Shown here one piece after another: positions 4,809 to 38,124 of a stretch of DNA of 48,480 nt. The position numbers and the translations under genes are program-made. How positions within the stretch are numbered: position 1 is the stretch's first letter; each line of letters begins with the position of its first letter. The stretch is taken from assembly GCF_902150035.1 (NCBI RefSeq), contig NZ_LR597512.1, positions 1 to 48,480 of the forward strand, given 5' to 3'. This DNA is from Enorma burkinafasonensis. Lineage in GTDB: Bacteria; Actinomycetota; Coriobacteriia; Coriobacteriales; Coriobacteriaceae. The notes beneath the pieces are model-generated. The model saw only the letters and a list, made by a program, of their open reading frames with translations, was not told the DNA's origin and searched no databases.

Positions 4809-5899
4809 TGTGGGAAGACACCTCTGAGGACCTCTGGGCGGGTGACGCCGCGCGCAGCCCGCATGCCCCCGCGCCGGCCGCGCCCGCGCCCGGCCAGCAC
4901 GGCGACCGCTTCGTGACGGGCAACCTCACGGGCGAGGACCTGGATGTCGAGCGGTCGCTGCGCCCGCAGAAGCTCGATGACTACTGCGGTCAGGAGCACA
5001 TCAAGCAGAGCCTGCGCATCCTCATCGAGGCCGCCCAGAGCCGCGGGGAGACCTTGGACCACGTGATCTTCTCGGGCCCCCCGGGGCTCGGCAAGACCAC
5101 GCTCGCCGCCGTGGTCGCCAACGAGCTGGGCGCCCAGATCAAGACCACCTCGGGCCCCGCCATCGAGCGCACGGGCGACCTCGCGGCGATCCTCACCAAC
5201 CTCCAGCCCGGCGACGTGCTCTTCATCGACGAGATCCATCGCCTCAACCGCTCCGTCGAGGAGATCCTCTATCCCGCGATGGAGGATTTCGCGCTCGACA
5301 TCGTGATCGGCAAGGGGCCCGCCGCCCGCTCGATCCGCCTCGACATCCCGCGCTTCACGCTCGTGGGCGCCACCACGCGCTCCGGCATGCTCACTGGCCC
5401 TCTGCGCGACCGCTTCGGCATCTCGTTCAGGCTCGACTACTACAGCGTCGACGACCTCGCTCAGATCGTGCTGCGCTCCGCGGCGATCCTCGGCGTGGAG
5501 GTCGACCGCGCCTCGGCGCTCGAGATCGCTTCGCGCTCGCGCGGCACGCCGCGCCTGGCGAACCGCCTGCTCAAGCGCGTGCGCGACTACGCGCAGGTGC
5601 GGGGGAGCGGCCCTGTGGACCTGCCGATCGCCCGCGAGGCGCTCGAGTTCTTCGAGATCGACGAGCTCGGTCTGGACTGGATGGACATCCGCATCCTGGA
5701 GACGCTCGCCAAGACGTTCCGCGGCCGCGCTGTGGGCCTCACCACGCTCGCGAGCGCCGTGGGCGAGGACCCCTCCACCCTCGAGGACGTCTACGAGCCC
5801 TACCTGCTGCAGCGCGGTCTCATCGTGCGCACCCCGCAGGGCCGCATGGCGACCCTGGCGGCCTTCGACCACCTGGGCATGGAGCCGCCGGCACGGTAG
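4805..5899 (+). CDS. ruvB: Holliday junction branch migration helicase RuvB
   Basis: AAA+ hexameric motor driving branch migration with RuvA. Visible: Walker A G-P-P-G-L-G-K-T (91-98), Walker B L-F-I-D-E-I-H (139-145), sensor-1 G-A-T-T (188-191), arginine finger in P-L-R-D-R-F-G (199-205), and the C-terminal winged helix (~290-364). A ~45-residue Ala/Pro-rich N-terminal extension makes it longer than the usual ~340. Two ATGs are adjacent (4805, 4808); 4805 gives the ATGA overlap with ruvA. Confidence 0.97.
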
Positions 5900-6002
5900 G
5901 GGCACGTCCCGCCGGGCGCGGGCGAGGCGGTGCCTACCGGGCGCCCTCGGGCGCGCATGCGCCTACGCCGCCCGCCTCGCGCCCCGAGCTTCCCCGCGCT
6001 GC

Positions 6003-6008
6003 TACACT
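6003..6008 (+). promoter_or_regulatory. Possible -10 element (TACACT)
   Basis: Hexamer 34 bp before the C69 dipeptidase start, matching the TACACT/TATACT form before several genes here. No convincing -35. Confidence 0.35.
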
Positions 6009-6041
6009 GGGGAGGACCGACGGCGTATCGAGGAGGCCCCC

Positions 6042-7562: not shown

Positions 7563-7599
7563 CGTCCCGCGGGCGGACGCCGGGCGCTCGCCGCGCGTC

Positions 7600-7660
7600 T
7601 GCGTCCACCGGCGGCTCGCTCGCCGCGCACCAGCGTCCACCGGCGGCTGCGCCGCCGCGC
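7600..7660 (+). repeat. Short direct repeat and hairpin in the spacer
   Basis: GCGTCCACCGGCGGCT occurs twice about 33 bp apart; the second copy runs into a CGGCGGC-TGC-GCCGCCG hairpin that could end dipeptidase transcription. No U tract. Confidence 0.4.
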
Positions 7661-7725
7661 CCGGCCGTTACGCGCGGGCCGCTTAGGGTACAACAGATGA
7701 AATGGACCCGGATGAGGGAGGAAAC

Positions 7726-8172
7726 ATGGCCAAGACCTTCGAGGAGCTCGTCACCGACATGCTCGACATGAGCCTGGGCGCCGCCGCCATGGCGGCCGAC
7801 AAGGGCAAGGAGTTTTTGGACGACCTCACCGCACGCGGCGCGCAGGCGCGCGACGAGGCCGCGCAGAGCGATTTCGGCCGCTCGATGGCCGAGGTCTTCA
7901 AGCAGGCCGGCGACGCCGTCGAGGACGCTACCGATCGCCTGAGCGAGCGCGGCGCGACCGTCGCCGAGCGCATCTTGGACGAGCTCATCGCGGCGCGCGT
8001 GCGGCCGCTCTCCGCGACCGAGCGCACGGCCTTCATCGCGCACGTGAACGAGCTCGTGGCCTCCGTGCCGGAGGCCGCCGTCTCCGTGCCGGTCGAGTCC
8101 GTGGAGGACGAGACCGCACCCGCCGAGGACGCCCCGGCGGACGGCGACGCCACCGCGGCCGACGGGGAGTAG
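7726..8172 (+). CDS. Phasin-like helical protein
   Basis: 148 residues. Residues ~1-100 are amphipathic helix (F-E-E-L-V-T-D-M-L-D-M, then long Ala/Glu/Asp/Arg stretches) and 110-148 form an acidic Ala/Pro/Glu/Asp tail. This resembles phasin/PhaI-type proteins, which coat granules or associate with membranes; no granule polymerase gene is near. The start at 7726 has GGAGG at the right spacing; an upstream in-frame ATG at 7702 lacks a ribosome site. UbiB follows 24 bp later, so the two are probably co-transcribed. Function not established. Confidence 0.7.
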   Translation: MAKTFEELVTDMLDMSLGAAAMAADKGKEFLDDLTARGAQARDEAAQSDFGRSMAEVFKQAGDAVEDATDRLSERGATVAERILDELIAARVRPLSATERTAFIAHVNELVASVPEAAVSVPVESVEDETAPAEDAPADGDATAADGE

Positions 8173-8196
8173 GGGCCCGCGCGTCCCTAGAGCACC

Positions 8197-9966
8197 ATGG
8201 ATGCCAAGTCGAAGGAGCGGCCCCCTGCGGAACCGCTGATCCCCGAGGAGCCCCTATACGGCGAGGAGCCGCCGCCGGAGCCGGAGCCCGCCGGCCGCCG
8301 CCGCGAGCGCGCGGTCGATGAGTTCCCCGACGAGCCTGAGGTCATGGCCGAGACCGAGAAGTACCAGCTCACCATGACCGGCAGGCGGCGCCGTATCGCG
8401 CAGATCTTCGATATCGCGCACAAGTACGAGGTGTGGCGCGCGATCACGCCCGTGCGCCTGCGCCGCATGCTCGAGGAGCTCGGCCCCATGTTCGTCAAGA
8501 TGGGGCAGATTCTCGCCAACCGCTCGGAGATCCTGCCGCAGCGCTACTGCGACGAGCTCAGGCGCCTGCGCACGGAGGTCGACCCCGTCCCCTACAAGGT
8601 GGTGCTCGAGTGCCTCGAGGCCGAGTACGGCAAGAAGCTCGGCGAGGTCTTCGACGCCATCGACCCCAAACCGCTCGGCAGCGCCTCGCTCGCGCAGGTG
8701 CACCGCGCGCGCCTTGTCACGGGCGAGGACGTCGCCGTGAAGGTGCAGCGCCCCGGCGCGCAGCAGGTCATGGCCCAGGACATCGACATCATGCGCTCGC
8801 TCGCGCGCCATATCTCGCGCTTCATCAAGAGCGAGCAGTTCATCGACTTGCGCGACGTGGTCGAGGAGCTGTGGCAGTCGTTCCGCGAGGAGACCAACTT
8901 CCTCGCCGAGGCCCGCAACCTCGACGAGTTCTACGCGTTCCACAAGGGCTCCGCCACCATCTCGTGCCCACGCTCGTACATGGACCTCTGCACCGAGCAC
9001 GTCGTCGTGATGGACTACATCGAGGGCATCTCGATCGCCGAGCCCGATGCGCTCAAGGCCGCGGGCTACGACCTCGAGCAGGTGGGGGAGCGCATCGTCG
9101 ACGACTACGCCACCCAGGTGCTCGACGACGGCTTCTTCCACGCCGACCCGCATGCCGGCAACATCATCCTCGCGGACGGCGTCATCTACTTCATCGACCT
9201 CGGCATGGTGGGCCGCATGTCGGCGCACGACCGCGGCGTGGTGAAGGACATCATCTTCGCGGTCGCCGAGGGCGATGTTCCCAAGCTCAAGGACGCCTTC
9301 ATGCGCTTCGCGATCTCGCGCGGGGAGACCTCGCAGATCGATCACACGGCGTTTCTCACCGACCTCGACTACATCGTCGAGGACTTCGGCGGGCGCGACC
9401 TGCGCGACCTCGACATCGGGCGGTTCCTCACCTCGCTCATCAACCTCGCGCGCAAGAACGACATCGAGCTGCCGAGCGTGGTGACGATGTTCGCCCGCGG
9501 CATGGTGACGCTCGAGGGGCTCCTCACCGAGTACATGCCCGACGTGAACATGATCGAGATCATCCAGCTGCACATCGCGCACGAGAAGAGCGGCTACCAG
9601 CGCGCCCGCGAGGCCGCCGAGGAGCTCGCGCTGGGCACGGGTCGTGCCGTGAAGGGCGGGCTCGAGGCGATGGAGTACCTGGGGCTCGCGTCGCGCATGC
9701 TCACGCGCGGCCAGCTCAAGATCAACGCCGAGGTGCTGGGATCGGAGGAGGTCCTGCGCCGCGTGGGCGGCATCGTGGACCGCATGTCGATGGCCATCGT
9801 GATCGCGGGTCTGTTCATCGGGTCCTCGGTGGTCTACTACGCCAAGATCGAGCCGGTCATCTTCGGCATCCCCATCATCGGCTTTCTGGGGTACCTCTCG
9901 GCGCTCGTGCTCGCGCTCATGCTCGGGCGCGAAATCTGGCGCAACAGCCGCGGCCGCCATCGCTGA
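8197..9966 (+). CDS. UbiB/ABC1 (AarF) family atypical protein kinase
   Basis: 589 residues. COQ8/UbiB hallmarks are present: K101-M-G-Q104 (KxGQ), the Ala-rich loop G-S-A-S-L-A-Q-V-H (161-169), K182 in V-A-V-K-V-Q, E231/E232, H-A-D-P-H-A-G-N (315-322) and D-L-G (334-336). Two C-terminal transmembrane helices (~526-575) anchor it. UbiB proteins support isoprenoid-quinone or lipid metabolism by ATPase activity; here menaquinone or another polyprenyl lipid is the likelier partner. The N-terminal ~50 residues are Pro/Glu-rich. The ATG at 8197 has no clear SD but follows the upstream stop closely; an alternative ATG lies at 8344 after GAGG. Confidence 0.92.
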   Translation: MDAKSKERPPAEPLIPEEPLYGEEPPPEPEPAGRRRERAVDEFPDEPEVMAETEKYQLTMTGRRRRIAQIFDIAHKYEVWRAITPVRLRRMLEELGPMFVKMGQILANRSEILPQRYCDELRRLRTEVDPVPYKVVLECLEAEYGKKLGEVFDAIDPKPLGSASLAQVHRARLVTGEDVAVKVQRPGAQQVMAQDIDIMRSLARHISRFIKSEQFIDLRDVVEELWQSFREETNFLAEARNLDEFYAFHKGSATISCPRSYMDLCTEHVVVMDYIEGISIAEPDALKAAGYDLEQVGERIVDDYATQVLDDGFFHADPHAGNIILADGVIYFIDLGMVGRMSAHDRGVVKDIIFAVAEGDVPKLKDAFMRFAISRGETSQIDHTAFLTDLDYIVEDFGGRDLRDLDIGRFLTSLINLARKNDIELPSVVTMFARGMVTLEGLLTEYMPDVNMIEIIQLHIAHEKSGYQRAREAAEELALGTGRAVKGGLEAMEYLGLASRMLTRGQLKINAEVLGSEEVLRRVGGIVDRMSMAIVIAGLFIGSSVVYYAKIEPVIFGIPIIGFLGYLSALVLALMLGREIWRNSRGRHR

Positions 9967-11242: not shown

Positions 11243-13309
11243 CTAGAGCGAGAAGAAGTCGAAGCGCGGGGGCAGCGCCTTCACGCGGTGGCCGCCCGGC
11301 TTCTCGCCGAGCGCGCGGGCGAGGTCGTCCATCGTGTCGAAGATGTGCTCCCACGAGAAGAACGTCTCCGGCGCGATGGCGAAGTGCTCGCAGATGAGCT
11401 CGCAGCCCTCGGGCACGATGCCGTGCATGAGCACGGTCGCGACGTGCAGCTCGTGGAAGGCGTCCACGAGCGCCCGGTGCATGAGCTCGTCGCCGCGCGC
11501 GGCATCCTCGGCACCCGCCGCCTTCGCGGCCTTGCTCGCGTCGCTCCAGCGCTTGTTGGCGGCACGCAGGTACGCGTCGCAGATGCCCAGCGCGCGATGG
11601 AGCTCGAAGCGGTGCATGGCGTCCTCGAAGGAGAGGATAGCGGCCTCGGCGGCCTCGATCACCGCGGGCGCAGGCGTGCCGGCGGGGATGCAGCCGCAGC
11701 GCACGCGGCTCTCGTCGCCCTCCTTCTCGGCGACACCGTAGAAGCAGGAGCGGGCGAGGCGGTTGAACACGCCCGTGAGGAGCGCGCCCTCCTTGAGCAC
11801 GGGGTCGATGACGCGCTTGTCGTCGCGGGCCAGAAGCGGCGTTCCGTCCGGGTTCTTGCCGGTCTCGCGCGTGTCGTAGGCTTTGGGGCTGAAGCTCACC
11901 GGCTTCTCGCCGAGGCCGAGCGACAGGAAGTGGGCGCGCAGCTGCTCGGGGCGGTAGTGCTCGAGGAGCTCCGAGGCGGGCGGGGGCGGGGTCTTGCTGC
12001 TCGAGCTCGCCTTCTTGCCCATGTAGAGCACGTGGTAGTTGGCCACGAGCGTCGACTGCTGCATGCCGCAGCCGAGCGCCTCCCACAGCGCCGTCTGCGC
12101 GACGCCGTAGAAGTAGATGTTGTCCTGGCCGATGAACTGGTAGGCGTGCGCGTCGGGCGAGCACCACCAGTCGTGCCAGTCGAGGCTGCTGTAGCGCTCG
12201 GGGGCGCCTGCGCGCTCCGCCTCGGCGAGTGCCGTGCGCGTGAAGCTGATGGGCGCCCAGAGGCTCTCGGGCCACACCCAGCAGGTGAGGCCGGAGCAGC
12301 CGCAGGAATCGTCCACCGGCACGCCCCACTCGATGTTGCCCGTGATGCGGAACGGCACGAGCGCCTTGCCCGAGCGGAAGCGCACGCCGCCGCGGTTCAG
12401 GACCTCGTGGGCCTCGTCGCGCTCGCGCCAGGAGGGGAACTGGACCGTGAAGGAGCTCTTGTTGCCCTCGGCCTCGATGACGGTGTGCTCGGGCAGCTCG
12501 GTCTCGATGGCGTCGAAGGCCTCGCGGAATTTCGTCTGGATGTAGAGCTGCGGCGCGCCGAGCCACTCCTCCATGGTCTTCACCACGACGGAGCGGGTGA
12601 CGCCGTCGTGCGCGAGCTCGGCGGTGTAGCGTTTGAGGTAGTCGAGGTAGGCGGGCAGGTCGAAGTAGAGGTTGTCGACCGGGCGCAGCTCCGGCGTGGT
12701 GCCGGTGAGCTGCGAGATAGGCGCGATGAGCTCCTCGGGCTCGAACTGGTGCCCCAGGTCGCACTCGTCCGCATAGGCCTTCTCGGACTTGCAGCCCTGG
12801 ATGGGGCAGCGGCCGATCACCTGGCGGCCGTTCAGGAACTGCCCGGCCTGCGTGTCGAAGAACTGGAGCGTCGAGCGCTTGTGGAGCACGCCCGCGTCCT
12901 TCAGGCGGTGGAGGATCTTGTCGGTCACGCGCTCGTGCACGCCCGCCGCGGGCGCAAGGGCGCTGCCGCCGAAGAAATCGGGCTCAACGCCGTAGCCCGC
13001 GAGCGTCGCCGCCTGCTTGTCATGGTTCTCCTGCACGTAGTCCGCGATGCTCGCGGTGTAGCCCTGCTCGTCGCACAGCTTGCGGTAGCTCTCCATGATG
13101 GGCGAGCCGTAGCAGTCGGTGCCCGAGACGAAGAGCACGTTCTCGGCGCCCAGGCGGTCGCGGAGGAAGCGCGCGTAGAAGTCCGCGGGGATGAACACGC
13201 CCCCCACGTGGCCGAAATGCAGGTTCTTGTTGCCGTAGGGCATGCCCGCCGTCACGACGGCGCGGCGGGGCCACGCGGGGCGGGATGCTTTGCTGAGATG
13301 AGCGGCCAT
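11243..13309 (-). CDS. metG: Methionyl-tRNA synthetase-like class I tRNA ligase
   Basis: 688 residues. Class I signature H-F-G-H (31-34, HIGH type) follows M-P-Y-G-N-K-N-L. A zinc knuckle is likely C168/C173/C183/H187. G-N-I-E-W-G-V-P-V (324-332) precedes an unusual C-G-C-S-G-L-T-C segment. The position of K-M-S-K-S reads K-K-A-S-S-S (432-437). Usual bacterial MetRS has K-M-S-K-S and F-Y-V-W-F-D, so this is a divergent branch; whether it is the cell's main MetRS or a paralogue cannot be told here. The start at 13309 is set by GAAGGAG 7 nt upstream; an upstream in-frame extension to 13414 has no ribosome site. Confidence 0.8.
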   Translation of the reverse strand: MAAHLSKASRPAWPRRAVVTAGMPYGNKNLHFGHVGGVFIPADFYARFLRDRLGAENVLFVSGTDCYGSPIMESYRKLCDEQGYTASIADYVQENHDKQAATLAGYGVEPDFFGGSALAPAAGVHERVTDKILHRLKDAGVLHKRSTLQFFDTQAGQFLNGRQVIGRCPIQGCKSEKAYADECDLGHQFEPEELIAPISQLTGTTPELRPVDNLYFDLPAYLDYLKRYTAELAHDGVTRSVVVKTMEEWLGAPQLYIQTKFREAFDAIETELPEHTVIEAEGNKSSFTVQFPSWRERDEAHEVLNRGGVRFRSGKALVPFRITGNIEWGVPVDDSCGCSGLTCWVWPESLWAPISFTRTALAEAERAGAPERYSSLDWHDWWCSPDAHAYQFIGQDNIYFYGVAQTALWEALGCGMQQSTLVANYHVLYMGKKASSSSKTPPPPASELLEHYRPEQLRAHFLSLGLGEKPVSFSPKAYDTRETGKNPDGTPLLARDDKRVIDPVLKEGALLTGVFNRLARSCFYGVAEKEGDESRVRCGCIPAGTPAPAVIEAAEAAILSFEDAMHRFELHRALGICDAYLRAANKRWSDASKAAKAAGAEDAARGDELMHRALVDAFHELHVATVLMHGIVPEGCELICEHFAIAPETFFSWEHIFDTMDDLARALGEKPGGHRVKALPPRFDFFSL

Positions 13310-16682: not shown

Positions 16683-18023
16683 CTAGCGGTTCATGAGGAA
16701 GATGACGAGCGCCACGATGGCCACGGCCACGACGGCGATTGCGGCGATGACGGCGATGAAGCGCACGCGCGAGCCGCGGGTCCTCATGCGGACGTCATGC
16801 TCGACCCCCGCGAGCTGCTCGACCTGGGCGTTCTTGGCCTCATAGGAGGCCTGGTCGCTCTGCAGCTGCGCGGCGATGGCCGCGGTGACCTCGGGATGGG
16901 CGTGGATGTCGTTCGCCTCGTCGAGCAGGGCCTGCGCGTCGGCGGCCTCGTCGCCGGCGTCGGCTGCCTGCTGCTCCTGCTCGCGCTTGGCCTTCTCGTT
17001 CGCCGAGATCTCGTCGCGGAGCGCCCGCTGCCGCTCGGCGGCGTCGTCCTTCGCCTCGCGGTAGGCGTTGCGCGCCTCGTCGGCCGCGTCGCTGATCTCG
17101 CGGAACTGCTTCTTGGCCTCGTCGATGGGCTTCTCCGCCTCGGTGACCGCCCGGCGGGCGCGCTCGAGCTCCTGGGCGAGCTCCTGCGTCACGCGGGGCA
17201 GGTCGTCCTGGGCGGCCGTGAGCTCGCGCGCGGCGTCCGAGATCTCGACCTCGAGCTCCTCGGCGCGCACGCTGTAGGCGGCCGAGTTCGCCGAGGGGTT
17301 GCGCTGGATATCGGCGTACTCCTCGCGCAGCATGTCGAGCCGGCTCGAGGTGCTCTCGACGGCGGCCTGCGCGGCCGCGACGCCGTTCTTGCTGTCGGCC
17401 TCCGCCTTCTCGAGGTTGCGCTTCGCGTCGTCGAGGCGGCGCTGCAGGCGGCTGCCGCTCTCGCGGGCCGACGCCTCGCGCGCCTCGGCGGCGTCGAGGG
17501 CTGCCTTCAGGCGCTTCTCGGTCTGGGCGTCGGCGTCCTTCATCTTCTGGAGCTCGTCCTTGAGGCGGTCGATCTCGCCCTGGAGGCGCTCCTGCTCGAG
17601 CTCGCAGGCGGCGATCGCCTTCTCGGCCTCCGCCTTGCGCGCGCTCTCGGTGCGGACGATCTCGTCGTAGCGGGCAGCGACGTCCTGGCGGTGCGCGAGT
17701 TCTGCCTGCTCGCCCTCGATGGCGTCGCCGATGGCCTCGAGCTCGTCGCGGGCGGCGGCGTGCGCGCGGCGCGCGGCGCTCATCTCGCGCATGGCGTCGG
17801 CGCCCTGCGCGAAGAACGTGCCCACGGCGTCGACCGCCGAGGTGAGCTGCTGCTGGGCGTCGGGTGCTGCGGCGGCTCCGGGTTGCCCCGGTTGGCTCTC
17901 CGCGGCCTCCGGCGCCGGCGCCTCCAGCGGAGCCTGGTCCTCAGGCGCCGACTCGTGCGGTGCCGGTGCGGCCTCATGGCCGGTGAGGTCCTCGTGCTGC
18001 TGCGTGTTCTGGTCGAGATCCAT
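16683..18023 (-). CDS. Tail-anchored long coiled-coil protein, function unknown
   Basis: 446 residues in three parts: an Ala/Pro/Glu-rich disordered N-terminus (~1-58), an almost unbroken charged coiled coil (~65-405, heptads rich in Ala/Glu/Lys/Arg), and one C-terminal transmembrane helix (~420-443) ending M-N-R. There is no signal peptide, so the coil should face the cytoplasm with the tail in the membrane. No enzymatic motif. Possible roles are envelope or division scaffolding; I do not recognise a named family. SD GGGGGG. It converges on queA. Three GGTAT boxes at 7-8 bp spacing lie upstream on its strand (~18085-18107). Confidence 0.8.
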   Translation of the reverse strand: MDLDQNTQQHEDLTGHEAAPAPHESAPEDQAPLEAPAPEAAESQPGQPGAAAAPDAQQQLTSAVDAVGTFFAQGADAMREMSAARRAHAAARDELEAIGDAIEGEQAELAHRQDVAARYDEIVRTESARKAEAEKAIAACELEQERLQGEIDRLKDELQKMKDADAQTEKRLKAALDAAEAREASARESGSRLQRRLDDAKRNLEKAEADSKNGVAAAQAAVESTSSRLDMLREEYADIQRNPSANSAAYSVRAEELEVEISDAARELTAAQDDLPRVTQELAQELERARRAVTEAEKPIDEAKKQFREISDAADEARNAYREAKDDAAERQRALRDEISANEKAKREQEQQAADAGDEAADAQALLDEANDIHAHPEVTAAIAAQLQSDQASYEAKNAQVEQLAGVEHDVRMRTRGSRVRFIAVIAAIAVVAVAIVALVIFLMNR

Positions 18024-29307: not shown

Positions 29308-30687
29308 CTACTCCGCGTCGAGGTCGATCGTGGTGCCCTCGAACACCTTGTTCACGGTGCGCACGGCGCACATCTTGCCGCACATGGTGCAGGTGCCCTC
29401 GGTCGAGGCAGGGGAGGCCTCGTAGCGCGCCCTCGAGGTCACGGGGTCGAGCGCGTACTGCCACATTTCATCCCACGCGAGGCGCCGGCGCGCGTCGCCC
29501 ATGCGGTTATCGGCCTCCTGCGCACCGGGCACGCCCTTGGCGATGTCCGCGGCGTGCGCGGCGATGCGCGTAGCGATGAGGCCGTCGAGCACGTCCTTCG
29601 CGTCAGGCAGGCACAGGTGCTCGGCGGGGGTCACGTAGCAGAGGAAGTCCGCGCCCGCGCTCGCGCTGATCGCGCCGCCGATGGCCGCGGTGATGTGGTC
29701 GTAGCCCACGCCGATGTCCGTGACGAGCGGGCCCAGCACATAGTAGGGCGCGCCATGGCAGAGGCTCTTCTCGAGCGCCACGTTCGCCTCGATCTCGTTG
29801 ATGGGCATGTGGCCCGGACCCTCGATCATGACCTGCACGCCCGCGTCCCAGGCGCGCTTGGTGAGCTTGCCGAGCTCGATCATCTCGGCGGTCTCCACGG
29901 CGTCGTTCGCGTCGAAGAGGCAGCCCGGGCGGCACGAGTCGCCGAGCGAGATGGTCACGTCGTACTCGTGGCAGATCTTCAGGATCTCGTCGTAGAACTC
30001 GTAGAACGGGTTCTCGTTGCCGGTAACCTCCATCCAGCCGAAGAGCAGCGACCCGCCGCGCGAGACGATGTTCATGAGGCGGCCGGTCTCCTTGAAGGTC
30101 TTGACGACGCTCTTGTTGATGCCGCAGTGGATGGTGAGGAAGTCAACGCCGTCCTCGGCATGCGCGCGCGTGACCTCCAGCAGGTCGTCGACCGTGAGCT
30201 TGACGAGGGGCTTCTCCATGTAGCCGATGGCGTCGTACATGGGGACGGTGCCCACCATGAGCGGGGTCTTCTGCACGAGCTCCTGGCGGAAGAACCGCGT
30301 CTTGCCGGAGTTCGACAGGTCCATGATGGCGTCGGCGCCGAACCGCTCGGCCGTGCGCACCTTCTCCCATTCCACGTCGGCGTCCGCGACGTCACCCGAG
30401 ATGCCGAGGTTCACGTTCACCTTGGTCGAGAGGCCCTCGCCCACGCCGCGCGGCTCGAGGCCGTACTCGAGGTGGCGGATGTTCGCCGGGATGGCGATGC
30501 GCCCGGCGGCGACACCTGCGCGGATGAACTCCGGGTCGCGATGCTCACGCTCGGCGACGGCGCGCATTGCGGGCGTGATCACGCCGGCGCGCGCGAAGTC
30601 GAGCTGTGTGACGCACGGGCTTCCGTCGGGGCGGGTGGGCGCGGTGCCCGGTGATTCGGTTGCGGTGGTCGCGTGCTGCGTATCCAT
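29308..30687 (-). CDS. thiC: Phosphomethylpyrimidine synthase ThiC
   Basis: 459 residues. Radical-SAM enzyme converting AIR to HMP phosphate. The C-terminal cluster motif is C-T-M-C-G-K-M-C (CX2CX3C), a form found in short anaerobic-type ThiC, against CX2CX4C in the longer type. Other blocks: S-N-S-G-K-T, H-C-G-I-N-K-S, S-R-G-G-S-L and E-G-P-G-H-M-P. Length suits the short class. First gene after the TPP riboswitch and the promoter at 30800. Confidence 0.97.
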   Translation of the reverse strand: MDTQHATTATESPGTAPTRPDGSPCVTQLDFARAGVITPAMRAVAEREHRDPEFIRAGVAAGRIAIPANIRHLEYGLEPRGVGEGLSTKVNVNLGISGDVADADVEWEKVRTAERFGADAIMDLSNSGKTRFFRQELVQKTPLMVGTVPMYDAIGYMEKPLVKLTVDDLLEVTRAHAEDGVDFLTIHCGINKSVVKTFKETGRLMNIVSRGGSLLFGWMEVTGNENPFYEFYDEILKICHEYDVTISLGDSCRPGCLFDANDAVETAEMIELGKLTKRAWDAGVQVMIEGPGHMPINEIEANVALEKSLCHGAPYYVLGPLVTDIGVGYDHITAAIGGAISASAGADFLCYVTPAEHLCLPDAKDVLDGLIATRIAAHAADIAKGVPGAQEADNRMGDARRRLAWDEMWQYALDPVTSRARYEASPASTEGTCTMCGKMCAVRTVNKVFEGTTIDLDAE

Positions 30688-31211: not shown

Positions 31212-32171
31212 TTAATGAGGAAGACCGACGAACGACCTCACGCATGGATGCGATAGCGCGGCGCATAGAATCATGATAAGAACGAGGACGGCATTGGAAC
31301 CAATTAAAAGCCTGACGGGCCAATTGCCTATCTCGATCTTCCCGTTGAACGACATCTTCCAGAGAAAGACAAACAGGATGCTGATGGCATCGATGAGGAC
31401 GAATCCGACGAGCGCGGTGAGGAACACCAGCGCTCTGAGCCCGGACGCCGTTCCAAGCGCGGAAAGGGACGATGTCGAGAATCCGACGGCACCGTTGAAG
31501 GCCAGAACTATGGCTGCGAACACGCCGAGGATGGCGATGTACTCCATTCGCATGCTATCGACCTTATCGGTAAACTTCTCTTCAAGCTCCTTTCGATTGT
31601 TGACGGCGTCCCTCTCGAGCTCCTTCCGCCTCTCGTTGAAATCCCTGATTCGGTTGCTCTGCTCTACATAGTGCCTCAATCTTGTTCGTTCGAGCTCTAT
31701 ATGGTCGCAGAGCTTTAAGACGCTTTCCGCCTGCGTGCTGGGTGCGTCGCCGCCGTCCGTCATGCGCGCGTAGACGATGTTGATATTCTCGGCAAGGCTG
31801 TTTACCTGATAAGGAACTCCGCAGTCCAGCTCCTCAGATTCCTCGAGGAGGGAAAACATTGTATCGCAGATATCCGCGTAGCTGTGCCGGTACTTTGGCG
31901 TTCCGCCGTATAGACGGTTGAAGAACTCGATTGTCGCATCGATATCTGCATCGGATAGAGCATCCTCCGGCCTGACGCTTGCCATCTCCTTAAGAAGAGA
32001 ACGTAAGGCCTTCCTTCGCTCTCCGTCATCACAGCCTTCACTCAGTTGAGGGATGTTCAGATTCGGCTTATCTATTCCACCAAACTGGTCGACAAGCGAT
32101 TGAAGGGCGGAGGAGAAGGATCTTAATAACTCGTCCGCCCCCGGATATTGATCGGACTTCCTATCTTCCAT
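31212..32171 (-). CDS. Coiled-coil three-TM protein, putative PanT-type toxin/effector
   Basis: 319 residues. N-terminal ~1-145 soluble and helical; coiled coil ~150-207 (charged, R-R-K-E-L-E-R repeats); transmembrane helices at ~211-231, 246-271 and 286-307; short tail. No enzymatic motif. Its start lies inside the end of the Panacea gene (11-bp overlap), so the two are translated together, antitoxin-like gene first. Panacea proteins neutralise diverse toxins, including ones that act at the membrane, so I infer this is the toxic or sensing partner. Lower GC than neighbours suggests transfer. Alternatives: a phage-defence membrane effector or a stress sensor. Confidence 0.6.
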   Translation of the reverse strand: MEDRKSDQYPGADELLRSFSSALQSLVDQFGGIDKPNLNIPQLSEGCDDGERRKALRSLLKEMASVRPEDALSDADIDATIEFFNRLYGGTPKYRHSYADICDTMFSLLEESEELDCGVPYQVNSLAENINIVYARMTDGGDAPSTQAESVLKLCDHIELERTRLRHYVEQSNRIRDFNERRKELERDAVNNRKELEEKFTDKVDSMRMEYIAILGVFAAIVLAFNGAVGFSTSSLSALGTASGLRALVFLTALVGFVLIDAISILFVFLWKMSFNGKIEIGNWPVRLLIGSNAVLVLIMILCAALSHPCVRSFVGLPH

Positions 32172-32634
32172 GATGAGGCCCCGTCGCAGCGGCGAGAATC
32201 ATCTCGTTCGGGATAATCCCCTTATGCTCATTTCTTACGTTGTAAACCTCATCCCACGGAGACCCTTTAGCATGGGAGATCCTAACAAGCTCCCATGGAG
32301 ACTTCTCGCGCAACAGAGCGATTCCCTCATCGATAAACTCGCGATGCGCAGGGGCAATCTGTGCACCAGAGTCGTTAAAAGAAACTCTTATCGGAGCTCC
32401 ACCGTAGTTGGAAAACTCGATATAAATCTCCCGGATGACCGGGCCGTACGGCCATGCCTCAAACTGATCGGAAAAGAGAAGATCGCCAAACACCCTGGCA
32501 AACACAATCTGAAGAAAATACAGCATCTTCTGCAACTGCAAGTTACTGATGGGCTTCTGATCCTTATAGCACTTGTCTATGACATATCGGGCGATTTGAC
32601 GCACGCGATATGGCGTTCCTGTTGACTTTCCCAT
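32161..32634 (-). CDS. Panacea (DUF4065/GepA-like) antitoxin-type protein
   Basis: 157 residues. Family blocks: I-A-R-Y-V-I-D (14-20), L-Q-L-Q-K-M-L-Y-F-L-Q (32-42), F-E-A-W-P-Y-G-P-V-I (58-67), then Y-I-E-F-S-N-Y-G. The family includes phage GepA and SocA and serves as a promiscuous antitoxin domain (PanA) in PanAT pairs; SocA also works as a protease adaptor. Start at 32634 is set by GGAGAGG 6 nt upstream; an in-frame ATG at 32658 is within the ribosome-site region. It overlaps the next gene by 11 bp. Promoter at 32661. Confidence 0.88.
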   Translation of the reverse strand: MGKSTGTPYRVRQIARYVIDKCYKDQKPISNLQLQKMLYFLQIVFARVFGDLLFSDQFEAWPYGPVIREIYIEFSNYGGAPIRVSFNDSGAQIAPAHREFIDEGIALLREKSPWELVRISHAKGSPWDEVYNVRNEHKGIIPNEMILAAATGPHHGR

Positions 32635-32660
32635 GCGATGCCTCTCCTCTCCAGACACAT

Positions 32661-32691: not shown

Positions 32692-32876
32692 TTAATATAG
32701 TACATATGTTCGTGTTTTACAATGTGAAGCCAAGACAAATTGGGGAAACGCATAAGGACGCCCCTCCTTCGTTGCACGTTACCGATTGCCCTGCGCGCCA
32801 CGTGGATGCAGTGGCCACCACGTCCCATCGGAGCAAGTGCGCATCTTTCTTCATGTACTGCTGGTCTTAAAACTCC
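32692..32876. other. Remnant DNA beside the Panacea pair
   Basis: Minus-strand remnants only: a 21-codon ORF (M-R-F-P-N-L-S-W, start ~32751) with a good SD (GAAGGAGGGG) that stops in the AT-rich promoter stretch, as if a longer gene had been cut there. GCAGTGGC at 32807 and AGTGCGCAT at 32836 hint at a diverged copy of the 35-bp repeat. Confidence 0.35.
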
Positions 32877-33140
32877 TCAACCAGCGCCGGTAGCACCGAG
32901 TGGTCCACGCGTGTTCCTCGGTCGGAATCGAGGGGCGCATCTGAGCGCGTTCTGCCCCTCGCCTGGGCTGATGAGGTCGGTGAGGCGGGTGAAAACCTTC
33001 TGTCATGACCACCCGTCGACGTCACCCGCGCCGATGATCACGGCCATGATTTCGCCGATGGCGTCGACGTCGGCGTCCCTGCCGTTATACGCCCTCAGCG
33101 TCGAAGCAACGTGCTTGCACCCGTCATTCGTCATGGTCAT
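32877..33140 (-). pseudogene. Small phage-like ORF with in-frame TGA
   Basis: ATG at 33140 (AGGTGAG upstream) opens 45 codons (D-A-D-V-D-A-I-G-E-I-M-A-V-I-I-G-A-G), stops at TGA (33003-33005), and continues in frame with coherent sequence (Q-K-V-F-T-R-L-T-D-L-I) to 32877. The D-V-D-G-W-S then V-F-T-R-L order looks like one interrupted gene. It follows the Lar-like ORF by 10 bp. Confidence 0.5.
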
Positions 33141-33150
33141 GTCGGCTCAC

Positions 33151-33501
33151 CTATCCCGATGATTCGATGTCTGCGAGCTGGTTTCGGCTCGAGATGGCTT
33201 TCCCGATAACCGGCGGCTTGTTGATGCCCTCGCCAGCAAGGAGATGAGTCGTCCTCCCAGACTGGTACACTATTGATGTTGAGGTGTGGCAGCCGGAACA
33301 GACCGCATGGGCTTCCTTGCCGCCAACCAAGGGGTAGTCTCAGTACTGGATGTAGGTCATGCCCCCGCAGAACGGGTGCGGGGCGAGTATGAAGCTGTAT
33401 GCGCTCTGGCCGGTGCTTTCGATGAGACTCACCATGACCTCGCGGAGGTACGCCATGGTGCGCCTTACCTTTTCGCGCATCTCGGTCGTGGCCATTTCCA
33501 T
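33151..33501 (-). pseudogene. Lar-like zinc-binding protein remnant
   Basis: Reads M-E-M-A-T-T-E-M-R-E-K and continues to P-F-C-G-G-M-T-Y-I-Q-Y, an in-frame TGA (33340-33342), then D-Y-P-L-V-G-G-K-E-A-H and V-C-S-G-C-H. The P-F-C-G-G and C-x-G-C pair around an aromatic/acidic block match Lar-family restriction-alleviation proteins of phages, whose usual first Cys (C-P-F-C) is His here. The TGA stands where Trp or Cys would be expected. Confidence 0.55.
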
Positions 33502-33533
33502 GACCTCATCGTTCGGAAGCTCTGTGACGTCGA

Positions 33534-33779
33534 TTATGCATTCTCCTCAACGATTCGAGCACCTCAGTTTTCGCAGAAAATGGGCTCATCATCGTATTTG
33601 TGGCGTCCATCGCATTCCGAGCGGCAAAACACGCAACTGTAGTCGACCATGCGGCACGTCCGCTCCGCGCGGCAGTTTCACACGGTGGCCGTGTCTCAGA
33701 CCGCGGCCATCTTGGAGACGCCAACTCCGCTCGGGCCTTCCTCCCCGCAGCAACCGCAGTGGAAGAACGCGAAGTGCAT
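33534..33779 (-). pseudogene. Cys-rich zinc-ribbon ORF with three in-frame TGAs
   Basis: A single frame from ATG 33779 (or 33818, inside repeat A) to TAA 33534 gives F-H-C-G-C-C-G-E-E-G, then Y-S-C-V-F-C-R-S-E-C-D and F-C-E-N-x-G-A-R-I-V-E, where x is TGA. TGA also falls at 33696 and 33678. No TAA or TAG occurs before the end. It resembles small zinc-ribbon genes of phages; the final C-x-x-C has TGA in place of the second Cys. Probably decayed. Confidence 0.5.
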
Positions 33780-33805
33780 TACGGACGAGTTGGAGTCCTC
33801 ATTTT

Positions 33806-33840
33806 GGAGCAGTGGCATTCTGGTTGGCAATCAAACGGGA
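33806..33840 (+). repeat. Cassette-junction repeat A
   Basis: Core GCAGTGGCATTCTGG, then TTGGCAATCAAACGG. Shares most positions with repeats B, C and D. Confidence 0.75.
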
Positions 33841-33958
33841 GAGTGCGCATACGCCCGGTGCATCCAGTCGCGCAACCGCCTTAAAGCGTCGAATATCGCA
33901 TCACGGCGGCCCGGTATCCCGCGGCCGCGCATCGCGGTGGGACTCGGCGGCACGGTAC

Positions 33959-33985
33959 AAAAAACGGGCCCCGGTCGGGGCCCGT
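33959..33985 (-). terminator. Terminator of the two tiny TM genes
   Basis: Perfect 10-bp stem ACGGGCCCCG/CGGGGCCCGT followed by six T on the minus strand. Confidence 0.88.
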
Positions 33986-33993
33986 CTCCTCAA

Positions 33994-34158
33994 TCAATCC
34001 CGGTCGATGTGCGACGCGTCGACTATCCGGCGCATCTTCGCGCGTAGCCTCGCGGCGCGCCAGTACGTCACGGCGAGCGATATAGCACCCCATAGCGGGT
34101 AGACGAACAGGAGCGCGACGACGAATATAACTATTGCGTATCCGATTACGTATTCCAT
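33994..34158 (-). CDS. 54-residue single-TM protein
   Basis: M-E-Y-V-I-G-Y-A-I-V-I-F opens a transmembrane helix (~4-32), followed by a basic tail (R-A-A-R-L-R-A-K-M-R-R). Intact frame with SD AGGTGA, and a terminator 9 bp after the stop. Size and layout resemble small phage/holin-like or membrane-associated regulatory proteins; no family assigned. Confidence 0.6.
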   Translation of the reverse strand: MEYVIGYAIVIFVVALLFVYPLWGAISLAVTYWRAARLRAKMRRIVDASHIDRD

Positions 34159-34162
34159 CGAG

Positions 34163-34255
34163 TCACCTCATAGACCGTCCGATGTGCACGCCCATGATAA
34201 ACGCCATGGCGCAGGCGACGAGCGCGAGCGCCGCGGCGATATGCCCATATCCCAT
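34163..34255 (-). CDS. 30-residue TM peptide
   Basis: M-G-Y-G-H-I then one hydrophobic helix (I-A-A-A-L-A-L-V-A-C-A-M) ending H-I-G-R-S-M-R. SD GGAGG, 7 nt upstream. Four bases before the next tiny TM gene, so they form a bicistron. Resembles type I toxin-like or small membrane peptides by shape only. Confidence 0.5.
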   Translation of the reverse strand: MGYGHIAAALALVACAMAFIMGVHIGRSMR

Positions 34256-34354
34256 TATACAGCCTCCAAACGGGGCTGCCCGGTCGGACCGGGCCACCTG
34301 AATCTATCGTCCATTCCCAGGGTGTGGGCTCGGTTGGCCTATAACGTCTTGCTC

Positions 34355-34400
34355 GTTTTGGGGCAATGGCATTCTGTGTGGCAGGCAAATTCGGAACGCA
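34355..34400 (+). repeat. Cassette-junction repeat B
   Basis: TTTTGGGGCAATGGCATTCT, then GTGTGGCAGGCAAATTCGG. Aligns with A and D over ~35 bp. Confidence 0.7.
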
Positions 34401-34485
34401 TCGGAGAGGCGGTGTGCAGCGACAGGCCGAAAGCGGTTGCTGCCGAGCTGTACAATTAGAAATACGACCAGATGAGGAGCATGAA

Positions 34486-34671
34486 ATGAGATTTCCCATG
34501 CCAGACTTTGTGAGAAGTCCTTACGTGGAGCACGGCAATAGGGCGGGCGACCCGGCATGGGTCGTTCGCGAGGACGCTCCTCAGGCGTTGCGAATCGAGC
34601 TGCAGAAGCAGATTGATCAATGGGAGAGAAAGCTCATCGATGCGAGACGCGAACTCGGATACAGAGCGTGA
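34486..34671 (+). CDS. Small orphan protein, 61 residues
   Basis: Reads M-R-F-P-M-P-D-F-V-R-S-P, then a C-terminal charged helix (Q-K-Q-I-D-Q-W-E-R-K-L). SD GAGGAG before ATG 34486. Lies between repeats B and C. Not recognised. Its first four residues equal those of the truncated ORF near 32751, which may be chance. Confidence 0.5.
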   Translation: MRFPMPDFVRSPYVEHGNRAGDPAWVVREDAPQALRIELQKQIDQWERKLIDARRELGYRA

Positions 34672-34715
34672 TATGTTTTGGAACAGCAGCGCCCTAACTG
34701 GCAAGCAAACAGAAG
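34672..34715 (+). repeat. Cassette-junction repeat C (diverged)
   Basis: TTTTGGAACAGCAGCGCCCT, then AACTGGCAAGCAAACAG; the most diverged copy. Immediately follows the stop of the 61-residue ORF. Confidence 0.55.
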
Positions 34716-34730
34716 AACGGGGCGTACTGC

Positions 34731-34790
34731 GTGAGGGTTGACGACAAGCCGTTTTCCGACCTAATCAGGGAAGCGGTGCAGGAGAGCTGA
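34731..34790 (+). pseudogene. C-terminal gene fragment after repeat C
   Basis: Twenty codons (V-R-V-D-D-K-P-F-S-D-L-I-R-E-A-V-Q-E-S) ending TGA that overlaps the next ATG (TGATG). Reads as the end of a longer gene cut at repeat C. Confidence 0.45.
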
Positions 34791-35041
34791 TGGAAGGCAT
34801 GTCCGGAATCATATCCGACAGGCTTCGGGAGCTGCGCGGCGAGCACTCCTGCAAGATCGGCATGAACGAGCCGACGCGTGTGGTAGACGGCATGCTTTAT
34901 GTGCCGTACTACGACACTAAGGACGGGAACGCTCCGGATGAGCCCCTCCCGATCCTCCTCATCGGTACTGACGGGAGCTTTACGGAAGTGTATGGCCCAT
35001 CTGAGGAATGGTTCAGGCTCATTGACCAGATTCCAGACTAA
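34790..35041 (+). CDS. Small acidic orphan protein, 83 residues
   Basis: Reads M-E-G-M-S-G-I-I-S-D-R-L-R-E-L, ending E-E-W-F-R-L-I-D-Q-I-P-D. Acidic, with predicted strand-rich middle (M-L-Y-V-P-Y-Y-D, L-P-I-L-L-I-G-T-D-G). Such small acidic proteins are often immunity or antitoxin proteins, but there is no direct evidence. SD GGAGAG; coupled to the fragment upstream. Lies between repeats C and D. Confidence 0.5.
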   Translation: MEGMSGIISDRLRELRGEHSCKIGMNEPTRVVDGMLYVPYYDTKDGNAPDEPLPILLIGTDGSFTEVYGPSEEWFRLIDQIPD

Positions 35042-35049
35042 CTTGTTGC

Positions 35050-35085
35050 AGGTTGGGGCAGTGGCATTCTGGCTGGTAATCACAC
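35050..35085 (+). repeat. Cassette-junction repeat D
   Basis: TTGGGGCAGTGGCATTCTGG, then CTGGTAATCACACTGAGG; 9 bp after the stop of the 83-residue ORF. Nearly identical to repeat A in the first 20 bp. Confidence 0.75.
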
Positions 35086-35124
35086 TGAGGGATGCTTTGG
35101 GATGGTGGTTGATACTCAAGAGCG

Positions 35125-35355
35125 ATGCAAGCGCTGGGCATCGACTATCGAGATAATGCCGAAGTGGTCAGAATCTCGGGCATGTTTTCTTACGGAGCTA
35201 TGGAGAACGGCGATTGTGGCGCAGGCCGATACATCGAGATCATCATGTCGCTGCTCGAGAAACCTAGGATAGCAACGACCCGCCGCGACGGACCATGCAA
35301 GCGATACCCGAAGATGTTCGATCTCGACGGCTACCGACTCGGCACATTTGGGTAA
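35125..35355 (+). CDS. Small orphan protein, 76 residues
   Basis: Reads M-Q-A-L-G-I-D-Y-R-D-N-A-E, with an Ile/Met-rich middle and a basic Arg/Lys patch (T-T-R-R-D-G-P-C-K-R-Y-P-K). Ribosome site poor (AAGAG). Starts 40 bp after repeat D. Unrecognised; may be a truncated gene. Confidence 0.4.
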   Translation: MQALGIDYRDNAEVVRISGMFSYGAMENGDCGAGRYIEIIMSLLEKPRIATTRRDGPCKRYPKMFDLDGYRLGTFG

Positions 35356-35394: not shown

Positions 35395-35610
35395 ATGGCC
35401 ACGATGACGATTAGGATGAGCCAGGAGGAAGCGGCGATCGCGAAGAAGTACGCGGAGTTCACGGGGCAGTCGTTCTCCGAGTTCGCGCGCCGCGCGATCG
35501 CGGACGCCATCGACGATGAGTGCGACACGGCGCTCCTCGAGAAGGCGATACGCGAGGATGACGGCGAGCGCGTGAGCCATGCCGAGCTCATGAAGGAGCT
35601 CGCGCGATGA
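35395..35610 (+). CDS. RelB/ParD-type RHH antitoxin
   Basis: 71 residues. The N-terminal strand T-M-T-I-R-M-S followed by two helices (E-E-A-A-I-A-K-K-Y-A-E-F-T-G-Q-S-F-S-E-F) is the ribbon-helix-helix fold. An acidic C-terminal helix should bind the toxin. Its stop overlaps the toxin ATG (ATGA). SD GGGAGG. Operator upstream. Confidence 0.85.
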   Translation: MATMTIRMSQEEAAIAKKYAEFTGQSFSEFARRAIADAIDDECDTALLEKAIREDDGERVSHAELMKELAR

Positions 35611-35876
35611 GCTGGCGCGTGGAGTACTCGAAGCGGGCCGCCAAGACGCTGAGGAAGATGGACCGGTTCGACCGCACTATGATCCTCGAGTGGGTCGACA
35701 GGAACCTCGAGGGTTGCGAGAACCCCAGGGCCCATGGGAAGTCCCTTACGGGAAACTACAGCGGCATGTGGCGCTACCGGGTCGGGAAGTACAGGATCCT
35801 ATGCCGGATCGAGGACGGCGCCCTCGTCGTTCACGCGCTCGAGATCGGGCACGGGCGCGAGGTCTACCAATCATGA
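35607..35876 (+). CDS. RelE/ParE superfamily toxin
   Basis: 89 residues: W-R-V-E-Y-S-K-R-A-A-K-T-L-R-K-M-D, then G-N-Y-S-G-M-W-R-Y-R-V-G-K-Y-R, and C-terminal H-A-L-E-I-G-H-G-R-E-V-Y. This W-R-Y-R-V-G-x-Y-R core is typical of RelE-like ribosome-dependent mRNA interferases. Overlap with the antitoxin gene marks a type II TA module. Confidence 0.88.
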   Translation: MSWRVEYSKRAAKTLRKMDRFDRTMILEWVDRNLEGCENPRAHGKSLTGNYSGMWRYRVGKYRILCRIEDGALVVHALEIGHGREVYQS

Positions 35877-36680: not shown

Positions 36681-36755
36681 TGGTGGGCGTTACAAGATTT
36701 GAACTTGTGACCTCTTCCGTGTCAGGGAAGCGCTCTCCCCCTGAGCTAAACGCCC
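36681..36755 (-). tRNA. tRNA-Val(GAC)
   Basis: Acceptor GGGCGTT/AACGCCC, anticodon stem CTTCC/GGAAG with loop CTGACAC (GAC), T-loop GTTCAAATC, encoded ACCA. The 3' end faces the accessory block. Confidence 0.96.
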
Positions 36756-36829
36756 TTGTGCTTTTCAGCGATAGCTATACTACCATGACCGCCCCCGCGT
36801 GCCAACGACAAATTTCCGAACTTTCAAAA

Positions 36830-37756
36830 CTACGACGTCCGCGGCTGCTTGTCCTTCGAGAAATTGAGGTTCTGGAAGGTGTCGGCGATGAAGCGGTCGT
36901 CGAAATGGCGGTCCACGTACTCCTCGAACGCGTTCTGCGGCGGGACGCCTTCCTGGCGCTGCCCCGAGCGGTAGAAGCACGCCACCGTCATGACGATGTC
37001 GAGCGCGATGAAGATACTCAGGAGGCTCACGAGGATCACCTGGCCGCGCCGCGTGGGCTCGCCGATGCGGTAGAGCAGCTCGGGCATGATCGCCTTGCAC
37101 CACACGATGCCGAGGATGCCCCAGGCGATGAGGAAGCGCCAGGCGACCCATTGCGTGATGTGGTCGGGGAAGTGGAGGTAGGACCACGACCAGGCGTGCA
37201 TGACGGTCTCCATGCTCCAGCCGGCGATCTGCTCGAGCAGGCCGCCGAGCGCCGCGGAGATGAGGAAGATCATCCAGAGCGGCTGGTCGCGCAGGCGCCA
37301 GAGCACGACGGTGAGGAGCACCGCACCGCAGCCGTAGAGCGGCGAGAACGGTCCCCAGACGAGGCCGACCCGGCTCTCCAGCACACCGTAGAGCACGTAC
37401 ATCCAGACGGTCTCGAGCAAAAGGCCCAGGACCGAGGCGACGAGGAACAGCAATATATATTGGTAGAGGCCGGGCTTGTGGTCGTTGAGGAAGTCGTCGC
37501 GGAGCTCGAGGCGGGCGGCGAGGATGACCTTGCGCTGCGCCTTGGAGATCTTGGGGCGGAGCTTGTTGCGCCCGAAGCTATCGTTCTCCGTCCAGATCGC
37601 GTCCTCGTAGACGCCGGCGTCGATGCGGCCCTGCTTGAGCATGCGCTTGAACGCCTTGCCCTGCCCGCGCCAGTCCTGGTAGCGGGCGACGGCCCCGGTG
37701 ACGAGCCGCGCGATGAGGAAGAGCACGACGATGACGATGGATATGGTGAACAGCAC
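36830..37756 (-). CDS. Putative ABC transporter permease-type membrane protein (CmpB-like)
   Basis: 308 residues. TM helix at 1-20, a soluble basic region to ~95, then about five further helices (~100-130, 138-160, 165-185, 205-230, 240-262) and a hydrophilic C-terminus. The L-L-L-E-T-V-W-M-Y-V-L-Y-G and W-G-P-F-S-P-L-Y-G-C-G blocks match the putative ABC transporter permease (type IV, CmpB) family of Firmicutes and Coriobacteria. No ATPase partner nearby, so transport is unproven. Starts M-L-F-T-I-S at 37756. Confidence 0.78.
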   Translation of the reverse strand: MLFTISIVIVVLFLIARLVTGAVARYQDWRGQGKAFKRMLKQGRIDAGVYEDAIWTENDSFGRNKLRPKISKAQRKVILAARLELRDDFLNDHKPGLYQYILLFLVASVLGLLLETVWMYVLYGVLESRVGLVWGPFSPLYGCGAVLLTVVLWRLRDQPLWMIFLISAALGGLLEQIAGWSMETVMHAWSWSYLHFPDHITQWVAWRFLIAWGILGIVWCKAIMPELLYRIGEPTRRGQVILVSLLSIFIALDIVMTVACFYRSGQRQEGVPPQNAFEEYVDRHFDDRFIADTFQNLNFSKDKQPRTS

Positions 37757-37893
37757 GGTGCGTCCAATCGGAAGCGGGCGGCCTGCCCGGCAGATGTCGA
37801 GGATGTGTAGAGGCGGGTCCAGCCGATGACCAGCGAAAACCCGAGCGGCACACGTGCATCATTGTACCCACGGAACTTTTTTCAAAAACAGGC

Positions 37894-37922
37894 TTGCACT
37901 CGGTTGGGTTCTCGCGTATATT
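37894..37922 (+). promoter_or_regulatory. Promoter of tRNA-Gly
   Basis: TTGCAC, 17-bp spacer, TATATT; tRNA starts 12 bp after the -10. Confidence 0.85.
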
Positions 37923-37933
37923 ATTTCCCGCAA

Positions 37934-38009
37934 GCGGACATGGCTCAGTTGGTAGAGCACAACCTTGCCAAGGTTGGGGTCGCGGGTTCGAGCCCCGTTG
38001 TCCGCTCCA
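37934..38009 (+). tRNA. tRNA-Gly(GCC)
   Basis: Acceptor GCGGACA/TGTCCGC, anticodon stem CAACC/GGTTG with GCC, T-arm GTTCGAGCC, encoded CCA. Confidence 0.97.
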
Positions 38010-38018
38010 TCGCATGTC

Positions 38019-38046
38019 AAAGGCCGGATGCAAGTTCGGCCTTTTT
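38019..38046 (+). terminator. Terminator after tRNA-Gly
   Basis: AAAGGCCG/CGGCCTTT stem, 10-nt loop, T5. Confidence 0.85.
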
Positions 38047-38050
38047 CATC

Positions 38051-38124
38051 GGCGACGTGGCCAAGTGGTAAGGCAGAGGCCTGCAAAGCCTTTACCCCCA
38101 GTTCGAATCTGGGCGTCGCCTCCA
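38051..38124 (+). tRNA. tRNA-Cys(GCA)
   Basis: Acceptor GGCGACG/CGTCGCC, anticodon loop with GCA, T-arm GTTCGAATC, encoded CCA. Lies four bases after the previous terminator. Confidence 0.97.

Follow-up and report, generated by a model that had tools for sequence, protein, structure and literature searches.

A decayed type II CRISPR array holding gene-sized inserts in Enorma burkinafasonensis

Our analysis indicates that the window (the whole 48,480-nucleotide stretch of the Enorma burkinafasonensis contig that was analysed) almost certainly contains a decayed CRISPR array that holds gene-sized inserts. The first-pass annotation had described four copies of a ~35-bp repeat at the junctions of small gene cassettes. 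All four copies are real and lie on the same strand; the repeat itself is 36 nt long and exceeds the core first described. Its copies are:

33801..33836, plus strand: repeat copy 1, decayed CRISPR repeat ATTTTGGAGCAGTGGCATTCTGGTTGGCAATCAAAC, consensus score 32/36
34355..34390, plus strand: repeat copy 2, decayed CRISPR repeat, consensus score 29/36
34675..34710, plus strand: repeat copy 3, decayed CRISPR repeat, consensus score 30/36
35050..35085, plus strand: repeat copy 4, decayed CRISPR repeat, consensus score 31/36

These scores are against a 36-nt IUPAC consensus drawn from relatives; the best score among 100 first-order random sequences of window length was 26, and none reached 29. A fifth copy suspected near 32807 was ruled out, as its score of 17/36 is at chance level against that random maximum of 26. 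Rfam was also searched for the repeat as an RNA family, and its matches were only tRNAs and a TPP riboswitch.

The intact form of the 36-nt repeat is GTTTTGGAGCAGTGGCATTCTGACTGGTAATCAAAC. A search of relatives found it in many other genomes, and in many of these it recurs with a period of 65–66 bp; genomes with such regular arrays have cas9 where tested (TIGR01865), and the loci read closely share the gene order cas9, cas1, cas2, csn2, array. Judged by its sequence and its neighbours, the repeat is a type II CRISPR repeat, of subtype II-A by gene set: it starts with GTTTT, and in relatives it is accompanied by cas9-cas1-cas2-csn2, a probable anti-repeat upstream of cas9 and spacers of 29–30 nt. 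Unlike a type II-A array, the window and its cas9-less relatives have no full complement of cas genes, and inserts the size of genes stand beside their spacers or in place of them. When 84,980 species were scanned for the exact pattern, 48 stretches came back, all of them (48/48) from Coriobacteriia by record title. Within its own genome the repeat core is confined to the window, and contig C14 carries a weaker copy, decayed further still (28/36), at a distance of ~80 nt from a gene that is 80% identical to a gene of an insert in the congener G002. The window array, whose copies match the consensus at 29–32 of 36 positions, thus shares its repeat with working arrays; it is a remnant, because cas9 (TIGR01865) is absent from the window genome and its four congeners. 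No cas genes lie beside the window array, and a weak Cas1 match on contig C27 of the same genome belongs to another system.

The copies are irregularly spaced (554, 320 and 375 bp from copy to copy), leaving intervals of 518, 284 and 339 nt between repeats; regular short spacers, though seen in relatives, are absent. The proposed change of gene content and strand between copies is borne out: interval 1 carries two small minus-strand ORFs, and intervals 2 and 3 carry plus-strand ORFs. The features of the inserts and of the stretch after copy 4 are:

33837..34354, no strand assigned: insert 1 (518 nt), a stem resembling a terminator, with two small membrane-protein ORFs on the minus strand
33994..34158, minus strand: 54-aa ORF in insert 1, membrane protein as judged by sequence
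34163..34255, minus strand: 30-aa ORF in insert 1, membrane peptide, judged likewise
34391..34674, no strand assigned: insert 2 (284 nt), holding a 61-aa orphan ORF
34486..34671, plus strand: 61-aa orphan ORF in insert 2
34711..35049, no strand assigned: insert 3 (339 nt), a toxin tail, then an immunity-like gene downstream
34713..34790, plus strand: tail of a phage toxin gene, papain-fold (Gln_amidase-type), cut at the repeat
34790..35041, plus strand: 83-aa ORF, probable immunity protein, its start overlapping the toxin stop codon (TGATG)
35125..35355, plus strand: 76-aa ORF after copy 4, with homologs at E 4e-15 to 4e-14

Insert 1 has no DNA match in 392 genomes of the order, and no DNA source for any window insert was found among the matches listed from those genomes. 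Judged by eye alone, the end of the 61-aa ORF in insert 2 looks like one of the regular 30-nt spacers in the C. provencensis array (GCGAACTCGGCTACCGACGCG). Insert 3 is the most informative. The gene fragment that had been noticed near 34731 is genuine: read as codons, 34713-34790 give the tail of a protein without its head, NGAYCVRVDDKPFSDLIREAVQES, and this has its match in a toxin tail from another genome. The insert opens in frame, and its RVDDKPFSDLIREAV matches RVDDKDVTDLIKKAV, a toxin tail in a C. provencensis insert, to a degree that none of 5000 shuffles equalled; a sister insert in C. provencensis matches PF15644. The 83-aa protein that follows has a weak match (E 0.003, tblastn) to a post-toxin gene both in an array insert (L238) and in L239, a contig of genome G030; a profile built from four putative immunity proteins failed to raise it above decoys, and a close-relative scan found no viral relatives of it. 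Its position and weak homology suggest that it may neutralise a toxin.

L239 is a repeat-free native locus with the order toxin, immunity gene, third gene. The 76-aa ORF after copy 4 clearly resembles that third gene (E 4e-15), which lies after the immunity gene, and its other homologs lie within or beside arrays L029 and L238. As the 83-aa and 76-aa proteins both resemble genes of L239, the two stretches that flank repeat 4 correspond, in order, to a native phage toxin-immunity module. A MuF domain and a C-terminal toxin domain are represented in relatives by PF04233 in an insert of array L090, by PF15644 in three inserts and by the native locus L239; the window holds the toxin tail only. MuF polymorphic toxin-immunity modules of temperate phages (PMC5576092) likewise combine a MuF minor head protein, a variable toxin domain and an immunity gene behind it, whereas here only tails and immunity genes occur, off the phage and between CRISPR repeats.

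Arrays of relatives show the inserts in fresher form. The C. provencensis array (L031, in an isolate genome, on a 1.73-Mb contig) has 15 identical repeats and one hybrid, and between them seven ordinary 29–30-nt spacers and eight inserts of 178–547 nt, each of which fills the space between two repeats exactly. The same mix of spacers and inserts between identical or near-identical repeats is found in Olsenella phocaeensis, Lancefieldella rimae ATCC 49626, Atopobium sp. HOT-810, a genome of the Collinsella family (G044) and an Eggerthellaceae MAG (G254, array L238). Inserts in cas9-less relatives measure ~180–2000 nt, alternate with 29–30-nt spacers and end exactly at the repeats. Over 29 loci, which were partly hand-picked and not corrected for kinship, cas9-bearing loci hold 297 regular spacers and 10 long gaps and cas9-less loci 37 and 54; three genomes (G254, G126 and G083) were counted as cas9-less without a whole-genome cas9 search, G254 because its contig begins with the anti-repeat/repeat hybrid. 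What stands between the copies is not the same in different genomes. Genes are cut arbitrarily where inserts end, no motif is shared at the edges of 44 inserts, and two C. provencensis inserts close with a reading frame whose stop codon lies in the repeat. No full-length match links the regular spacers to the inserts. Insert-bearing arrays occur in related bacteria of the gut and mouth without Cas9.

In these fresher relatives the inserts are single continuous pieces of foreign DNA, derived from phage or from the chromosome of another species. One L. rimae insert (7821-8926) aligns from its first base to its last with the chromosome of a congener, G126, at 94%, and another (12038-12790) does so over 750/753 nt at 95%; since the native L. 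rimae copy of the latter region, on another contig, is only 65-78% identical to G126, this DNA is foreign and had another species as its source. One insert, of 597 nt, consists entirely of sequence from within a phage terminase gene, with homology up to the repeat on one side (DNA) and near the repeat on the other (protein). Further inserts contain C-terminal parts of MuF minor head proteins, a scaffold protein, DUF4258 and the like, and in the three inserts with papain-fold toxin tails (PF15644) small genes follow the toxins. Inspected by eye, the junctions of sourced inserts reveal no obvious microhomology, and the source loci scanned contain no repeat. For C. provencensis inserts, no DNA sources were found among the 392 order genomes. 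A close-relative scan found no viral relatives of the C. provencensis toxin tail or of a 135-aa insert ORF; NCBIfam gave no name for insert proteins.

Insert-bearing arrays are associated with loss of the cas genes. Where multi-insert genomes were searched for cas9 it is missing, and none of them yielded type II cas1, cas2 and csn2 as a complete set: L. rimae retains cas2, csn2 and a truncated cas1, and G044 retains fragments of cas2 and csn2. The array start in C. provencensis, G211, G129 and G254 is a hybrid, in which an array repeat is joined to a sequence, probably the tracrRNA anti-repeat, that relatives carry immediately upstream of cas9. The cas operon may therefore have been deleted in several relatives by recombination between this probable anti-repeat and an array repeat.

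The surroundings place the window array at a locus shared with congeners:

29308..30687, minus strand: thiC (PF01964), left flank, a marker by which this chromosomal region is recognised in congeners G002 and G004
36681..38124: tRNA-Val (minus), tRNA-Gly (plus) and tRNA-Cys (plus), right flank, the same trio as beside the C. provencensis array

Near thiC, congener G002 has 7 diverged copies of the repeat at intervals of 117-1455 nt, and G004 has 1-2 worn copies. A 95-aa ORF of G002 is absent from phage and plasmid records and has no viral relatives in a close-relative scan. The C. provencensis array, which the tRNA-Val/Gly/Cys trio also flanks, runs in the direction opposite to that of the window array. 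Genes flanking the arrays are mostly metabolic and vary by genome, and no family was common to the flanks among the 25 of 51 families listed.

On balance, and with moderate confidence, we find the whole best explained by a decayed type II array into which blocks were integrated by its own adaptation machinery and which later lost its cas genes. Cas1-Cas2-Csn2 would have integrated blocks at the repeat with proper size control missing, in lineages whose Cas9 was on its way out or gone; thereafter deletion would have removed the cas operon and the array would have decayed, with immunity genes perhaps kept as protection against phage toxins. Cas1-Cas2 joins arbitrary ends to both sides of a repeat; it is for this reason that we favour oversized integration, and junctions without obvious microhomology fit an enzymatic joining of this kind. 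Two of the outer flanks at right edges, GCAACC and CCAATC, are suggestive with regard to a PAM. Against integration stands the short and fixed length of the spacers for which Cas1-Cas2 is known. Nor is the process caught in progress, because no complete type II cas1-cas2-csn2 was found in multi-insert genomes and no state with active Cas1-Cas2 plus inserts was seen; likewise, a stage with failing Cas9 is unobserved, because Cas9-bearing loci have almost no inserts among their 297 regular spacers, and in G217, where cas9 is split in two frames, the longest of the gaps is an insertion sequence. Our preference for Cas1-Cas2 as the agent of insert capture is hence tentative, and we hold it a little less firmly than the scheme as a whole.

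A less likely explanation, and the one that fares best among the others, is that inserts arose after Cas loss by a double crossover, in which two neighbouring spacers against the same phage recombined with that phage and the intervening repeat was replaced by the phage DNA between their targets. Recombination between CRISPR spacers and phage targets is reported by PMC8616872, which cites Varble 2019 and Watson 2018. Such a process would yield repeat-exact phage inserts in the absence of any Cas protein and explain both the association with cas9 loss and the arrays without any cas genes. However, it predicts a PAM after the first 29–30 nt of each insert, and no shared motif is present there in 44 inserts. 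The one PAM that could be inferred is ~NGAAR, from five near-matches of one Collinsella array (with Cas9); NGAA stands at the predicted site in 6 of the 44 inserts, against a background mean of 3.3 and maximum of 7, although 2/4 inserts of array L096 have it. Moreover, two adjacent spacers against a foreign chromosome would be needed for each of the two L. rimae inserts.

Ordinary decay of an abandoned array through insertion sequences, deletions and chance mobile DNA, with no capture process, we consider improbable: several long gaps are indeed insertion sequences (1981 nt in L095, 2059 nt in L092), but most inserts of cas9-less arrays are not, and random insertion would not repeatedly give pieces that fit exactly between near-identical repeats. 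Lower still in probability is the idea of the first-pass annotation that the repeats are recombination sites of a cassette system, integron-like or otherwise site-specific, with the repeat as attachment site. Integron cassettes too are repeat-bounded gene units, and units do move here: the repeat with 358 nt of insert is common to G126 and G127, two Lancefieldella species, at 95%, with different upstream neighbours. Yet the repeat is a CRISPR repeat that adjoins cas9 elsewhere; insert ends cut genes and share no attachment-site motif; no integrase was seen; and the linked recombinase that such a system would call for did not appear as a common family in the array flanks among the 25 of 51 families listed. 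Similar insert genes also occur in arrays of G002 and G254, which belong to different families, and repeat-insert units may well spread once formed. Homologous exchange, by which orphan genes had been proposed to spread, may thus account for the spread of formed units, as in G126 and G127, but leaves the exact joining of unrelated chromosomal DNA to repeat ends unexplained. Solitary CRISPR repeats carried by phages or other mobile elements and inserted with neighbouring genes recall Racr loci (RNA anti-CRISPRs), in which single CRISPR repeats lie beside small genes (PMC10651486), but are very improbable here, where the repeats form a chromosomal array remnant, the exact pattern has 0 matches in 2.9 million viral contigs (IMG/VR), scanned source loci lack the repeat and the congener loci sit in one chromosomal region.

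Toxin tails recur with immunity genes behind them, and reading frames have stayed intact in the window array despite its decay; both would fit retention of anti-toxin immunity genes. An alternative to selection is preferential capture from the phage head and packaging region, since all structural phage matches recognised in inserts belong to that region. Islands of orphan immunity genes (polymorphic toxin orphan modules, or acquired interbacterial defence) hold immunity genes without intact toxins; the arrays described here are likewise collections of immunity genes, and differ in that CRISPR repeats bound these genes and ordinary spacers stand among them. On the usual view, CRISPR arrays store guides of ~30 nt. 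The open-licence literature searched reports spacer/target recombination and solitary phage repeats, but no CRISPR array in which inserts the size of genes separate intact repeats.

In conclusion, it is conceivable, though speculative and rather unlikely, that the adaptation machinery of Coriobacteriia captures whole genes and that the arrays store phage immunity genes, providing a protein-based anti-toxin protection that outlives the loss of Cas9. If the reading of the inserts given here is true, either Cas1-Cas2 can integrate DNA without a ruler, or recombination between arrays and phages is frequent enough in nature to reshape arrays, and either mechanism is testable in cultured type strains. 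The inserts suggest that abandoned arrays may live on as stores of immunity genes.

A ParE toxin and a DUF6290 partner lie immediately downstream of the array remnant (window 35395-35876), and a SocA/Panacea antitoxin-domain gene lies between thiC and the array (window 31212-32658), overlapped by a 319-aa ORF that has no match in Pfam. Elsewhere in the window genome, contig C14 carries another decayed repeat-like site at about 17233-17701 (L240:7234-7702; 28/36 positions matching the repeat consensus), and the gene adjoining it shares 80% identity with a gene within an insert of the Enorma congener G002. A weak Cas1 match on its contig C27 (41663-42274) is part of some different system and not of the type II array.

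In G126, a Lancefieldella congener of L. rimae (L194, reverse complement 7483-7876), a single repeat is present together with a 358-nt stretch that is 95% identical to the start of an insert in L. rimae, and the upstream neighbour of this unit is a different one. In O. phocaeensis (L088, reverse complement 3876-6556), two inserts share their initial 194 nt (99.5%) and diverge beyond; their left edge is identical, as apparently is the preceding spacer, and at least one continues past the common segment into a toxin-like domain. At a second repeat locus of G139, distant from its cas9 array, two repeats flank an IS-like transposase ORF of 610 aa (L092:8643-10701). In G002, the first two repeats enclose a gene for tRNA-Leu (L029:5513-5595); in other genomes tRNA-Leu is located close to the leader-distal array end (loci L093, L088 and L102).

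Several cas-less arrays open with a hybrid unit, in which sequence found upstream of cas9 (TTTGACTCGCAGTG...), probably the tracrRNA anti-repeat, is joined to a repeat:

L031 (C. provencensis), 6013, reverse complement: hybrid first unit
L099, 7597: hybrid first unit
L100, 161, reverse complement: hybrid first unit
L238 (Eggerthellaceae MAG), 1377, reverse complement: hybrid first unit

Because the first unit combines these two sequences, it suggests that the cas operon was lost through recombination between the sequence upstream of cas9 and an array repeat.
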